DNA of 34,364 bases from a virus. The notes beneath the pieces were generated by a model, which had not been told where the DNA came from, made no database searches, and saw nothing but the letters and a program-made list of their open reading frames with translations. This document shows positions 1,601 to 18,340 of the stretch, piece by piece (the first letter of the stretch is position 1; the number at the start of each line of letters is the position of its first letter). The stretch is from positions 1 to 34,364 of the IMG/VR virus record IMGVR_UViG_3300035698_013823; one strand, given 5' to 3'. The translations under genes were made by a program, and so were the position numbers.

Positions 1601-4086
1601 GCTGCGTACCTCGCTTGCTCGCTAAACATTCTTGTAAGTTGCGCCACTGATTGTCTAGTTCCTTGAAGAGCTACTTTCTCTCCGTTGTTCAGCGAGAGAT
1701 TTATATCTACGGAATTTCCCTTGGACTTTTTCATTACCTCGTTGTGCGGTATTATCATTCCGTTAGTGTTTGGAATAAACTGCTCTTTCCCGTACTCACC
1801 CACAGTGTACTTTTTTCCCGCCTTAACTGGACCTCCGTAAGCTCTTGCTTCTCCTGAGCTTTTGTAAGGATTGTTGTTGGTGCTGTTTTGTGCGTCCTGC
1901 AATCGCTTATAGTCTTCCAAAACTAACCTTACCTGCTTGCCAAGATCTTCAACGCTAGACTGCATCTCTCCTGACACGCGAACCCACTCTCCGCCTATCT
2001 CTGTCCACACCCCGCCTATATTGTTTTCTTCCTCAATAAGCAGCGCCGCTTGTGCCGCCAAGTCTTTTATCTTTTCAGCGTAATCCGTCATCTTCTCTTT
2101 TACGGCTTCCATGCTCTTTGTTATTGAAGATTGGTGACTCTCCTCTAAGCCTATCAACTGCTCGCCAACAGCTTTTAGAAGATCCATTTTTTCAGCTCTT
2201 TGCTCGTCTGCTGACGTTATTTCTAGCGTTCCGTCTCTTTGAGCTTTTAACATTTTTTCGTAGTTTTTTCGTGCTTCTTCGTACGGTTTTGCGGCATCTC
2301 CGTACGCGTTTTGTCCGTTTCTAGTTATTTTCTGCTGATACTCCCAAACTCTTCTGGCGTTGTCTACATCCGCGCTGCTTACAGTTGCTTGTATGCCGTC
2401 AGTCTTAAGGGACGATATAAGTTCTTTCGCCTTCTCTAAGTAACTAACCTGTTCTTCTAAGTTTCCAGACTTAGCTGCACTCTCTGCCATGCTTCGGTAC
2501 TTGGCTATTGCTGCTGTGGTGTCGTCCCAAGCTTCTTCAGACGTCATTCCTTCAAGAGATATTCCTCTGAGCGCGTCACTGAGCGATTCTCTATTGTTTA
2601 GAATTTTGTCATCAATTTTTTTCAAATCGTCTGACAATTTTTCATAGTCGTCTAACGCTTTTGTTGATCCCGCGGAATAATCAGATAAGGCTTCTCCAAG
2701 TCCTGCAAGAGTTATTTGTACTTCTGTATCTCCTATCTCTTTTATTTTGTCACCAAGCTTTGCTGCTTGTCTCTCTGCTGCGCTGGTGTCAAGCTTTATG
2801 TCGAGATTTAATTCCTCAGCTAATGCGGCTATGCTTGCTTTAAATTTTGTAGCATCGCCGCCCAAAAAGCCTTGGTCTTGTCCTAAGCGAGGCCCTGTTG
2901 CTTTGTTTAGCTTCTCTTGTAATTCATTAAGCTCTATTAGTTGGTTTCTAAGCTTAAAGTAGTTTTTTCCATCTATAGATCCTACGTCAACTCCTGCGTC
3001 TTTTAACAGTCCAGAATTTACTTTTCCTGATAATTGATCCATAGACGATTGCGCCCACGCTGCCGCACTGACAAGATTGCTTAGTCCACCAAGAACTAAA
3101 TCAATAGCGCTTGTAACGTTGGTGGCCCATAGCGCCATTGTCGCTGGATCGTTAAAAGAATCGAACGTTGTCTTTAGCTTTAACGAAATTGAAGACAGTA
3201 TTTCTGCAGCAGCCGCATTAGTTCTTAATCCTGCCAGCGCTTCTGAAGCTGATACTATTACGCCGGCAAGAGAAGAAAAAGCACCATCTCCTTTTCCAAT
3301 ATGCACCATTAACTTAGTCCATTCTGTTCTAAGCAGCGTCACTGCTCCTGAGAATGACTTCATTCTAGCTTCAGCTGCTCCAGCGTGCAGCTTTTCTAGT
3401 TCTCCAAACATTTTTTTCAGTGCGCCAGTAGATTCAAGAGTTCCAGTCTTTATAAGATCAACCATATCAAACATAGTCATTCCAAGACCTCTCGCCATTG
3501 CTTTCATAGCTGTAGGTATTTGCTCTCCCAATTGCCTGCGAAGCTCTTCCATAGAGATAACGCCCTTACCGACCATCTGCTGAATAGCAATAGTAACCAA
3601 TTTGAATTGATCGCTATTGCCGCCAAAAGCAGCAACAGAGTCAGTAAGTATTTGCATTGTTCCTTCTAGCGGCTTCAAACCAGAAACAGTCAACTTTACA
3701 AAGGAGTCGGCCAATGCGTCTACAGAGAATGGAACCTTGGTTGAGAAGTCAAGAATATCTTTCATGGCTTTAGCGCCGCCAGCAATAGATCCTGTGGCGG
3801 TGTTCATCATGATTTGGAGCTGCTCCATATTATCGTTTATTGTGATAAAGCTGCCGGCCAAAGCACCAGCCCATCTTGTTATAGAGGCTGTCATATCTCT
3901 AAAACTAGGTGCGAACGCTCCAATTGTTCTGCTTATTCCAGCAATTTTACCCTGGAGTCCTCCAAAGTTTATAGTCTTAAACTTTCCAACGAGTTTGTCC
4001 GCAGCTTGTCCAGCCGACTTAAACTCGCTAGTTACACCGCGCAAGACTCCTACAGCGTTAGTATCTACCAGCAGTTCAACTCTCAT
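1597..4086 (-). CDS. Tape measure protein
   Basis: This 829-residue protein sets tail length and is threaded through the tail tube. Residues about 70-240 carry the conserved tape measure domain: an SFITINDNMEQLQ-like start, a PFSVDALADSF segment and a GVISMEELRRQLGEQIPTAMK segment, which I recognise from the TIGR02675-type family. Long helical, Lys/Glu/Ala-rich stretches follow, and the C-terminus holds a GKKYTVGEYGKEQFIPN segment. At about 0.15 nm per residue, a family rule of thumb, the tail would be near 120 nm. The gene overlaps the frameshifted chaperone reading frame by 11 bases, the usual arrangement. Confidence 0.93.
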   Translation of the reverse strand: MRVELLVDTNAVGVLRGVTSEFKSAGQAADKLVGKFKTINFGGLQGKIAGISRTIGAFAPSFRDMTASITRWAGALAGSFITINDNMEQLQIMMNTATGSIAGGAKAMKDILDFSTKVPFSVDALADSFVKLTVSGLKPLEGTMQILTDSVAAFGGNSDQFKLVTIAIQQMVGKGVISMEELRRQLGEQIPTAMKAMARGLGMTMFDMVDLIKTGTLESTGALKKMFGELEKLHAGAAEARMKSFSGAVTLLRTEWTKLMVHIGKGDGAFSSLAGVIVSASEALAGLRTNAAAAEILSSISLKLKTTFDSFNDPATMALWATNVTSAIDLVLGGLSNLVSAAAWAQSSMDQLSGKVNSGLLKDAGVDVGSIDGKNYFKLRNQLIELNELQEKLNKATGPRLGQDQGFLGGDATKFKASIAALAEELNLDIKLDTSAAERQAAKLGDKIKEIGDTEVQITLAGLGEALSDYSAGSTKALDDYEKLSDDLKKIDDKILNNRESLSDALRGISLEGMTSEEAWDDTTAAIAKYRSMAESAAKSGNLEEQVSYLEKAKELISSLKTDGIQATVSSADVDNARRVWEYQQKITRNGQNAYGDAAKPYEEARKNYEKMLKAQRDGTLEITSADEQRAEKMDLLKAVGEQLIGLEESHQSSITKSMEAVKEKMTDYAEKIKDLAAQAALLIEEENNIGGVWTEIGGEWVRVSGEMQSSVEDLGKQVRLVLEDYKRLQDAQNSTNNNPYKSSGEARAYGGPVKAGKKYTVGEYGKEQFIPNTNGMIIPHNEVMKKSKGNSVDINLSLNNGEKVALQGTRQSVAQLTRMFSEQARYAA

Positions 4087-7656: not shown

Positions 7657-8661
7657 TTAATTATGCGTCAGAAACGCCATTGGGATATTTTTGCGGGTAA
7701 CCGCACGATCCCAGTTTGTTGCGAGAGCCAATTCTGCGAGTGTTGCAGATTGCCCAGCTACGTTGGCGGAAGTGAACGACATTCCGTAAGGGTGGATGAT
7801 GTCAGATCGACGAGAATGAAGAATGTCTTGTCCACCGCCGTAACCAGCACTTGGAATTCTTTCAAGTTCTGAAGGTATCATTGGGCTTCCTGCGCCATGA
7901 TCAAACGCACCGGCTCCGAACAATACTGTTAAGTATTTTGGAGAGTTTGTTCCAGTAGTAACTACCATGTCGTCGTCTACAATTATACGCTTTCCAAGAT
8001 AAGTAGCAACTTCAACTTCTCCTCGAGAATTTGGTATGACGGCTACCAAATTCTGCTTCATCAAAGCATTGTACGTAATTGAGTGCATTGCAATGGCAGC
8101 CAGTGCGCCTTGACTGTCGCCCATTGTCTGGCCAGCGTCCATAATTGCTTCCACGCCGATCAGCGTTGATGCTGCTGGAGACGCAACGTCAGAGTAAATA
8201 TTCTTAACCATGTCTGCGTCGTCATTTGCGATATTGTCGGCAAGTACGCCTCTTACTGCTGCCAACAAGCGGCGCTGCTGTTGTGTCACCCACCAATTGC
8301 TAATTCTGGCGGTAATAGCGGCCAAAGGATCGCGAAGAGCGAGCTCACGAGCAAGATCCATAGTTGACCATGAGTAATGCAGTGAAGCAAGTCGGTAAGT
8401 CATTTTCTTTTTAGCAATCTTGCCGGGTACAGAAAAGTGAGTAGGATCATCGTCAACTCGGTCAGGTTCTGTATCGATGTCAAGCGTACCGTAAAATGGA
8501 AGCTCTCCAATGTTTCCTCCAATGGCTGCCATCGCACTTAACATCGGGTTTGTCACCATAACGCCGGATGCAATAAATTTGTTTGTCTCATCGACTTTTT
8601 CGTCAATCACAGCGTTGAATACCAACGGATTGTAAATGTCTGCTAATTGTGTAACTGCCAT
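7657..8661 (-). CDS. Major capsid protein (HK97 fold, Gp13-like family)
   Basis: The 334-residue product starts MAVTQLADIYNPLVFNAVIDEKVDE and contains GELPFYGTLDI, YRLASLHYSWSTMDLAREL and the late RRSDIIHPYGMSF segment, a combination I recognise from the Gp13-like group of HK97-fold capsid proteins. It forms the icosahedral shell around the scaffold. GAGG lies eight bases before the ATG. A strong hairpin with a T-run stands between the scaffold gene and this one, so its expression relative to upstream genes may be tuned there. Confidence 0.88.
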   Translation of the reverse strand: MAVTQLADIYNPLVFNAVIDEKVDETNKFIASGVMVTNPMLSAMAAIGGNIGELPFYGTLDIDTEPDRVDDDPTHFSVPGKIAKKKMTYRLASLHYSWSTMDLARELALRDPLAAITARISNWWVTQQQRRLLAAVRGVLADNIANDDADMVKNIYSDVASPAASTLIGVEAIMDAGQTMGDSQGALAAIAMHSITYNALMKQNLVAVIPNSRGEVEVATYLGKRIIVDDDMVVTTGTNSPKYLTVLFGAGAFDHGAGSPMIPSELERIPSAGYGGGQDILHSRRSDIIHPYGMSFTSANVAGQSATLAELALATNWDRAVTRKNIPMAFLTHN

Positions 8662-13367: not shown

Positions 13368-13388
13368 AGCTAAAGTGAAACTTTAGCT
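13368..13388. repeat. Perfect 8-bp hairpin
   Basis: AGCTAAAG pairs with CTTTAGCT across a TGAAA loop, followed on the plus strand by TTT. It could be a weak terminator or an origin structure. The same 17 bases, in inverse complement, occur inside the HD phosphohydrolase gene at 19341-19357. Confidence 0.55.
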
Positions 13389-13406
13389 TTTGATGTGTCG
13401 GTATTG

Positions 13407-13460
13407 TTTATGTTTAGATTTATGTTTAGATTTATGTTTAGATTTATGTTTAGATTTATG
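13407..13460. repeat. 12-bp tandem repeat, 4.5 copies
   Basis: The unit TTTATGTTTAGA is repeated exactly at 13407, 13419, 13431 and 13443, with a half copy at 13455-13460. The copies are identical and contiguous, so this is not a CRISPR array. Regularly spaced AT-rich repeats beside a packaging operon resemble origin iterons or a DNA-unwinding element. Confidence 0.92.
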
Positions 13461-13470
13461 TGATTGGGTT

Positions 13471-13504
13471 GGTTGTTGGTAGTGTTTGGTTGTTGGTAGT
13501 GTTT
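13471..13504. repeat. 17-bp direct repeat, two copies
   Basis: GGTTGTTGGTAGTGTTT occurs at 13471-13487 and 13488-13504 without a gap, and GGTTGTTGGA follows at 13518. It continues the G/T-rich half of the control region. Confidence 0.88.
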
Positions 13505-13563
13505 AGGTGATGATGTTGGTTGTTGGATTGGGGAATTGCGGTTGCTCTGATCCATCCGACAAG

Positions 13564-17286: not shown

Positions 17287-17688
17287 ATGAAAGACTTAGA
17301 AGTCAAGCTTACAATTGCAGAAATAGCAAAAGCTGAAGGTGTGAGCCTTGATTTTTACATCAACAGGATGTTTCAACAGGATGAGGCAAAGTACAATTAT
17401 TGTTGGGTGCTACAGCGTAGTGTGGATAGAGAGCTGTCGGATGACAAAAGTAAGCACGTTAATGTAATATCCGATGGAGAGCCAAGGTATTTAGAGGATA
17501 AGGCCGGGCGCCTGATTCCCCCGATATTTAGATTGGGGGAATCAGGCGTGGATCGTTCATGTCCTTATCCACCTGGCTCTGCTCAGCATGACGAATGGAT
17601 GTACGGCATCTACAAAGGGTATAATATCGATCTGGCATTCCATAAGGGAGAAGCAAATGAGAGCGATGATGCTAACGCTAGAGAATAA
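17287..17688 (+). CDS. Unknown early protein with an internal perfect hairpin (133 aa)
   Basis: The ATG follows the previous stop directly and has AAAGGA eight bases upstream. The protein begins MKDLEVKLTIAEIAKAEGVSL, which could be a short helical domain, and its middle (GRLIPPIFRLGESGVDRS) is encoded by a 14-bp perfect inverted repeat. The C-terminal part (PGSAQHDEWMYGIYKGYN) is polar and aromatic. It overlaps the next gene by 32 bases. No family recognised. Confidence 0.65.
   Translation: MKDLEVKLTIAEIAKAEGVSLDFYINRMFQQDEAKYNYCWVLQRSVDRELSDDKSKHVNVISDGEPRYLEDKAGRLIPPIFRLGESGVDRSCPYPPGSAQHDEWMYGIYKGYNIDLAFHKGEANESDDANARE
17509..17548 (+). repeat. Perfect 14-bp inverted repeat inside a coding region
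   Basis: CGCCTGATTCCCCC (17509-17522) and GGGGGAATCAGGCG (17535-17548) are exact complements around a 12-base AT-rich loop. This is the longest perfect stem seen in the window and it is in frame within the 133-residue gene. Confidence 0.92.
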
Positions 17689-17842
17689 CAAGACAATCTT
17701 CATAAACCCGAACAATTTTGTTTCAGTCTACGTAGCGCACCAAGGGAAAACGGCGGTAGATACAGTAAAAGACGAATTTTTTGTACTGGAGACTCATGGA
17801 GACGTAGCGCAAGAGTTTACGGCAGCAATGGCGCATAAATAG
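17657..17842 (+). CDS. Small protein, paralogue of the gene at 32861 (61 aa)
   Basis: The start ATG 17657 has GGGAG seven bases upstream; the longer frame from 17588 lies inside the previous gene. The product MRAMMLTLENNKTIFINPNNFVSV... aligns along its whole length with the 60-residue product at 32861: shared pattern MR-M-L, N/K-N-I-(F/Y)INP--FVSV, T-V-T and (D/E)VA-EF-AAM. The fold looks like the small beta-helix FlbD-like type. The function is unknown. Confidence 0.78.
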   Translation: MRAMMLTLENNKTIFINPNNFVSVYVAHQGKTAVDTVKDEFFVLETHGDVAQEFTAAMAHK

Positions 17843-17848
17843 CAACAA

Positions 17849-18051
17849 TGGGTGGTGGCGGAATGAGGTAGACGCTACAGGGTGCTGAGTAGATGGAGAA
17901 TGATGTCGGCGAGGGCTTTGATAATCGACCAGTAGGGGGCACTTGATAGAGGTATTGAGAGAGGCATGAAGCTCATGCAGATGGAGTATTGCTGCCAAGA
18001 CTGACGCGACATCCACGTAAATCCTTTGCAGGTTCGAATCCTGTCCACCCA
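17849..18051 (+). ncRNA. tRNA-like RNA with a long insertion replacing the anticodon arm
   Basis: TGGGTGG (17849-17855) pairs perfectly with CCACCCA (18045-18051) as a 7-bp acceptor stem. TG and a D-arm follow (GCG, loop GAATGAGGTAGA, CGC; 17856-17875), almost identical to bacterial leucine tRNAs. Near the 3' end GCAGG, TTCGAAT and CCTGT (18028-18044) form a textbook T-arm. Between them are about 150 bases where a tRNA has 30-45. They contain a GATGTCG (17902-17908) / CGACATC (18007-18013) helix and a GCATGA/TCATGC hairpin, and no normal anticodon loop. No CCA is encoded. It may be a tRNA mimic, an interrupted tRNA-Leu, or a tmRNA-like molecule. Confidence 0.72.
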
Positions 18052-18094
18052 CAGAAGTAATAACAACTAACTTTTACTTTAAAGGAGAACCACA

Positions 18095-18340
18095 ATGACA
18101 TTACTAGAGGCGAGAGAAGCGTTAAATATACTGTCCAAAGGGCGATACAGGTCATTATGTTACGAAGTTAACGACAATTCGTTTGGAGACGTTACTGTAA
18201 CGTGCACCGTATACGCAGCCGATTACTCGCACCATTCAGCGCCCACATGGGAAGAAGCGCTCAAGGCCATTGAGTACAAGATCTACCCAGAAAGAAAACC
18301 AATTGTAGAAGTAGAAGACGTGCCGGTAATATTGGCGTAA
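18095..18340 (+). CDS. Small early protein (81 aa)
   Basis: AAAGGAG lies nine bases upstream of the ATG. The product MTLLEAREALNILSKGRYRS has an N-terminal helix, then a beta-rich middle (VTVTCTVYAADYSHHSAPTWEEALKAIEYK) with the look of a small phage protein of the double-psi or ferredoxin-like type. No family could be named. It is followed by a perfect 11-bp hairpin. Confidence 0.75.
   Translation: MTLLEAREALNILSKGRYRSLCYEVNDNSFGDVTVTCTVYAADYSHHSAPTWEEALKAIEYKIYPERKPIVEVEDVPVILA

Follow-up and report, generated by a model that had tools for sequence, protein, structure and literature searches.

RNase P and the enzymes that process the 3' ends of transfer RNAs (tRNAs) recognise the acceptor, the T-arm and the elbow, not the anticodon. 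The tRNA-like structures of plant viruses, which form the 3' ends of RNA genomes, are often pseudoknotted. The molecules that RNase P processes besides tRNAs include transfer-messenger RNA (tmRNA) and two phage RNAs, M3 and C4 (PMC11143913). RNA C of phage T4 (species 1) is a stable late phage RNA that was detected by Northern blotting and whose function is unknown (PMC9697503). The present work concerns a predicted tRNA-like RNA of 203 nucleotides (nt) at positions 17849–18051 (+) of IMG/VR virus record IMGVR_UViG_3300035698_013823, the whole sequence of which (34,364 bases) was analysed and is called here the window. A first-pass annotation, made from the letters alone, had read this RNA as tRNA-like, with a leucine-type D-arm and an inserted domain in place of the anticodon arm. 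The proposal weighed below is that it belongs to a widespread phage family of anticodon-less RNAs resembling tRNA-Leu, in which a body processed by the host carries a payload in the variable arm; we regard this proposal as evenly poised between being right and being wrong.

The window RNA

The RNA is bounded by the two strands of a perfect 7-bp acceptor stem, TGGGTGG (17849–17855, +) and CCACCCA (18045–18051, +), which corresponds to a stem that covaries in relatives. The 3' strand is followed by CAG, with no encoded CCA, and the mature 5' end may lie at 17849 or 17850. After the first strand come U8-G9, read directly from the sequence, and the leucine-type D-arm GCGGAATGAGGTAGACGC (17858–17875, +), which has an intact 3-bp stem, agrees with the family form GGAATN(1-3)GGTAGAC after U8-G9 and lies within a 22-nt string common to two other viral contigs (see the next section). 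The T-arm GCAGG-TTCGAAT-CCTGT (18028–18044, +) has a canonical loop and a stem that covaries in relatives, and it places the window in the TTCRAAT class defined below. Between the D-arm and the T-arm, an insert of 152 nt (17876–18027, +), delimited by comparison with relatives and among the longest of the family, replaces the anticodon and variable arms; it would be the payload domain.

A covariance model (R1) built from 22 other phage sequences, with the window left out, retrieves 17849–18051 at 36.1 bits (E = 7.1e-7), its training sequences having been preselected for pairing. The default search gives this match over the full length, whereas with filters off it comes in two pieces, probably because the insert is longer than the model's length limit. 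The 7-bp acceptor, the D-arm, the T-arm, the 152-nt gap and the leave-out match all uphold the reading as a leucine-type, tRNA-like RNA in which an inserted domain stands where the anticodon arm should be.

The scaffold of the window RNA is thus beyond chance, whereas the insert itself is unconvincing. The possible inner helix formed by GATGTCG (17902–17908, +) and CGACATC (18007–18013, +), initially taken for a structure of its own, lies away from the usual position of the variable arm in the family, and a helix of equal or greater length appears in 33% of shuffles of the insert, so that this part of the first-pass annotation has to be given up. A small putative hairpin, GCATGA-AGC-TCATGC (17964–17978, +), is visible in the insert sequence. 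The entire RNA folds with an unremarkable energy (z = 0.2). A search with tRNA and tmRNA tools, proposed as a check at the outset, returned nothing for the window: ARAGORN calls no tRNA, and Rfam gives no match at the gathering score or at E up to 10.

A phage RNA family with covarying stems

The 22-nt D-arm string GGTGGCGGAATGAGGTAGACGC recurs exactly in two other viral contigs (L001 and L002) among 2.9 million of IMG/VR. Each of them has its own T-arm and a matching acceptor; the acceptor sequences differ, as do the inserts, which are about 50–80 nt long. Relaxed pattern scans, in which the search patterns did not demand stems, yielded a broad set of at least 279 candidates, with at least 235 distinct inserts after loci holding a true ARAGORN tRNA were dropped. 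The RNAs are usually 90–200 nt long and fall into two classes, one with a TTCRAAT T-loop and a 5-bp T-stem, and a larger one with a TGCAAAT T-loop and a 6-bp T-stem.

In the broad set, acceptor pairs 1–7 are each kept in 130–150 of 150 sequences of the TGCAAAT class and in 68–82 of 92 sequences of the TTCRAAT class. Pairing is well above that of shuffled partners at every variable pair, and all Watson–Crick types are found at most positions. On 22 + 22 diverse sequences, which had been preselected for paired acceptors, covariation scores reach 0.63 and 0.73, against 0.18 and 0.20 after shuffling, and none of 500 shuffles scores as high. Furthermore, a perfect 7-bp acceptor accompanies 233 of 396 T-arms outside ARAGORN tRNAs, compared with 7 of 395 when acceptors are scrambled. 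Covariation in relatives had been set beforehand as a check on the tRNA-like reading, and it is strong in both the acceptor and the T stems, which this comparative evidence shows to be kept paired by selection. Decayed tRNA genes or chance assembly could explain why most members are called by neither ARAGORN nor Rfam, and would suit a degenerate-looking copy in P70. Such an origin is contradicted by the strong covariation of both stems, by the precise register of the variable-arm helix (see the next section) and by the leave-out E-value of 7e-7 for the window, and we find it scarcely credible.

The composition of the two classes bears on another explanation, a non-decoding leucine carrier that would be charged by leucyl-tRNA synthetase, for which the anticodon is not needed, and would serve some non-ribosomal use or act as a sink. 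A leucine-type D-loop is found throughout the family and, among TTCRAAT members, 53 of 66 have A as the discriminator and position 74 is usually C, features that would suit such a carrier. The TGCAAAT class fits poorly, since its discriminator is free (A in only 81 of 145) and its acceptor–T helix measures 13 bp instead of 12; moreover, the seven-pair reading of the window gives C at the discriminator. We consider a leucine carrier very improbable.

Loss of the anticodon arm and expansion of the variable arm

In 36% and 29% of the members of the two classes, compared with 3% after shuffling, a helix of at least six Watson–Crick pairs stops exactly 2 nt short of the T-stem, these two bases being usually AT. 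This is the site of the variable arm in type II tRNAs. In these relatives, the linker that joins the D-arm to the helix is mostly 8–18 nt long and mostly shorter than the 17 nt of an anticodon arm. The position of the helix and the shortness of the linker together argue that the anticodon arm has disappeared and that the variable arm has grown, and the predicted fold is one in which the former is lost or cut down to a short linker. The idea that the RNA is an interrupted tRNA, which the first-pass annotation had also put forward, does not agree with a linker that mostly has no room for an anticodon arm.

Replaceable interiors and repeated scaffolds

Ten Listeria loci carry the RNA. Across seven of them, mean identity is 92% for the scaffolds and 45% for the interiors, against 43% for shuffled interiors; two pairs of related interiors (0.70–0.73) stand out among them. 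Similar interiors are also found under differing acceptors (L038, L054, L067, L104 and L125), and L043 and L059 have similar interiors with stems changed on both sides. The same scaffold may also be repeated within one contig. Between positions 7991 and 11500 of L223, which also holds 16 ordinary tRNAs, there are eight perfect-acceptor sites, all AGTCAGG, with nearly the same T-arm and unrelated interiors. Two or three copies are present in L080, L206, L064, L012 and L016. Taken with the covariation data, these comparisons indicate that the RNAs of the family keep a tRNA body, lack the anticodon arm, and have a variable arm that is expanded and interiors that can be replaced.

A tandem cluster was also seen on the reverse complement of L142 (about 2840–3330), where one tRNA-like RNA seemingly holds another tRNA-like unit in its insert.

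Distribution among phages and genomic setting

In SPP1, the RNA (X89721, about 3423–3531) lies in the head operon, with gene 9 on one side and gene 11 on the other; the core match is unannotated there, and the revised annotation of this phage does not mention a tRNA (PMC6316719). It lies beside an HU gene in phi3T and its relatives, where the core match is likewise unannotated, and no feature is annotated at the core match in KLEB27-1, in the Listeria phages PSA and LP-101, in D6E or in EfV12. In B054 (a Listeria phage) and B025, a small hypothetical open reading frame (ORF) follows the core downstream or overlaps it in part. Short D-arm matches suggest that the RNA is also present in phages of Lactobacillus, Enterococcus, Weissella, Paenibacillus and Geobacillus. 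Many Firmicutes phages carry it between an ArpU/RinA-type late activator and HNH or terminase genes, and the upstream neighbour gene is on the same strand in 181 of 249 cases.

The recurrent position between late activator and HNH or terminase genes, the location between genes 9 and 11 of SPP1 and the prevailing agreement of strand with the flanking genes would all be expected of a processing signal. The fold would then only mark a cut by RNase P (and 3' processing) that divides an operon transcript, and the interior would be irrelevant and drift. Such punctuation does not explain why the variable-arm helix is maintained, why similar interiors recur with different acceptors or why a single contig has eight copies with one acceptor, and we consider it quite unlikely.

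A search of 398 bacterial genomes, all of one phylum, gave no member of the family. Exact copies of the D-arm string occur, among 84,980 species genomes, only in one Peptococcaceae metagenome-assembled genome, where the surrounding sequence is that of contig L002 of IMG/VR, and in three actinobacteria, where there is no tRNA-like context. This phage-borne distribution, together with the multi-copy occurrence and the fast-changing interior, is also what an anti-defence decoy would display, that is, a tRNA mimic soaking up host tRNases, nucleases of the CCA end or abortive systems that sense tRNAs. A non-decoding RNA would thus be expendable, and its variable domain would shift in an arms race. 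However, the part that has been lost is the anticodon loop, which is the target of many known tRNA-cutting defences. Anticodon-like hairpins with a 5-bp stem and a 7-nt loop are few, being found in 16 of 235 interiors; this exceeds the shuffled mean of 6.4, but several of the 16 come from one insert cluster. The fold of the scaffold is, in addition, conserved while acceptor sequences vary between phages. We consider a decoy unlikely.

Proposed mechanism

Under the payload proposal, the mode of action would be the following. The tRNA body would draw the RNase P and the 3' tRNA-processing enzymes of the host, and the RNA would be cut out of a polycistronic phage transcript. Its tRNA-like ends would make it stable and protected, decoding being impossible. 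The active portion would be the variable-arm domain, an exchangeable payload binding RNA or protein of the host or of a rival phage. More generally, phages of Bacillota, and probably those of other hosts, may encode an undescribed class of non-coding RNAs built on a tRNA-Leu chassis devoid of anticodon arm, processed by the host, fitted with interchangeable payloads, sometimes present in many copies and engaged in phage–host or phage–phage conflict; to this wider claim we give slightly less than even credence.

Several points weigh against the proposal. The processing of the family RNAs by RNase P is predicted from the fold. Antisense matching of the interiors to the locus around them is no better than chance (the longest exact match averages 9.31, compared with 9.29 for shuffled interiors), so that the payload function is a putative one. 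The canonical variable-arm helix is undetected in about half of the family, in which it is common and not strictly defining, and the window insert has none 2 nt before the T-stem. No close relative of the window phage was found through a neighbouring ORF or the helicase in IMG/VR, or by blastn against annotated phages. The TGCAAAT class has G at T-loop position 55, which makes the usual tRNA modification impossible there. Some members of the TTCRAAT class that lie in tRNA arrays, including some of those in L223, exceed the Rfam tRNA threshold, and with such a score they would be annotated as odd tRNAs. The preselected training set of the leave-out model also belongs among these points. Decoy and punctuation each explain the variable-arm helices, the reuse of interiors and the multi-copy scaffolds, taken together, less well than the payload model does.

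An RNA family with covarying stems, found in hundreds of phage contigs and in the textbook phages SPP1, PSA and phi3T, appears to have been overlooked, perhaps because tRNA finders reject it and searches for RNA motifs discard tRNA-like sequences. If the payload proposal is true, the family would be a natural counterpart of the tRNA scaffold of biotechnology and would add a new kind of effector RNA to those of phages. With SPP1 in B. subtilis, it can be approached directly by genetics.

Neighbouring genes and other small RNAs

In the window, the RNA is flanked by two ORFs of the same strand. The upstream one (17588–17842, +; 84 amino acids) has its stop six bases before the RNA, and a search of IMG/VR gave no relative of it; the downstream one (18095–18340, +; 81 amino acids) has no PHROG match. 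An ORF on the reverse strand that covers the RNA (17723–18052, −) starts with MGGQDSNLQR and is the usual false ORF opposite tRNA T-arms. Window genes include those for portal, terminase, major head, tape-measure, helicase, primase, DNA polymerase, ligase and thymidylate synthase. The terminase shares about 43% identity with terminases of Kagunavirus phages, and this likeness suggests a Gram-negative host. Near the end of a leftward gene block, the ORF at 13370–13555 (−) encodes a low-complexity tandem NLNI repeat, NLNINLNINLNINLNI.

Other small RNAs were seen in the phages that carry the family. Just after the main RNA of SPP1 (L280:1615–1665) there is a much smaller second tRNA-like element, ACGGAC...CGGGTTCAATTCCCGG...GTCCGT, with no anticodon arm. 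Mini tRNA-like elements of 50–65 nt, consisting of an acceptor and a T-arm with a non-leucine D region, are found at L002:6171–6222 (−), L124:8160–8218, L187:2033–2092, L074:13152–13216 and L020:7259–7315 (−). They occur in the same phages, often near the leucine-type RNA, and are possibly a second class. In two Listeria phages (L209 and L276), the Rfam RNAs rli62 and mcrA flank the tRNA-like RNA on either side, which makes this region a cluster of small non-coding RNAs. Finally, L026, L027, L029 and L032 carry leucine-type phage tRNAs with an 8-nt anticodon loop (ttat) according to ARAGORN; these are perhaps frameshifting tRNAs.

Comparison with known systems

Type II tRNAs, here tRNA-Leu, share with the family the acceptor, U8-G9, the D-stem with its leucine-type D-loop, the T-arm and a variable-arm helix 2 nt before the T-stem. 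The family differs from them in that the anticodon arm is missing, the variable arm is expanded and, mostly, no CCA is encoded, and its larger class also differs in the 6-bp stem and TGCAAAT loop of the T-arm. The window itself has the acceptor stem and the TTCRANT-loop T-arm of a tRNA and lacks the anticodon arm with its 5-bp stem and 7-nt loop.

Like the family, tmRNA (RF00023) has tRNA-like ends and a long domain in the place of the anticodon arm. It measures roughly 350 nt, compared with 90–200 nt, and has a stemless D-arm, whereas the family keeps a leucine-type D-stem. The window gives no match to the Rfam tmRNA model, although the same search finds the true tmRNA of EfV12, which served as a control. 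The tmRNA-like reading entertained at first is not supported, as the D-stem of the window RNA is intact and EfV12 carries a true tmRNA and the tRNA-like RNA as separate, nearby genes. The tmRNA of this Enterococcus phage (L282:338–688), which Rfam detects about 0.8 kb from the tRNA-like RNA, is absent from the feature table of the record.

As regards a tRNA containing a group I intron, no Rfam intron match was obtained in the window, and there is no anticodon arm to restore. The possibility that the RNA is a lone copy of a host tRNA end used as a phage attachment site (attP) was already disfavoured in the first-pass annotation, rightly so, because the 5' half is complete and as conserved as the 3' half; no integrase was found among the 20 window proteins scanned, which are part of the ORFs.

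The tRNA-like structures of plant viruses are a further case of viral tRNA mimicry, from which the family differs in consisting of separate genes in DNA phages. The M3 RNA and the C4 antisense RNA of P1/P7 are not known to be based on a full leucine-type tRNA body. Host RNase P cuts both of these small phage RNAs (PMC11143913), as is predicted for the family.

T4 RNA C also comes from a tRNA region of a phage. Its 3' 91 nt (L036:1411–1501, −) contain a 7-bp acceptor, CGGAACG/CGUUUCG, and a T-arm, with no anticodon arm, and no leucine-type D-loop appears in its alignment to R1. The match to R1 (28.6 bits, E 1.4e-6 in 4 kb) suggests a kinship, which is only a lead since true tRNAs score similarly. 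The family may thus bear on the role of the stable T4 RNAs C and D.

A search of the open-access full-text literature found no description of such an RNA family, and other papers could hold one. The family is new in the sense that it falls within the definition of no known family, while its chassis is clearly derived from a tRNA.
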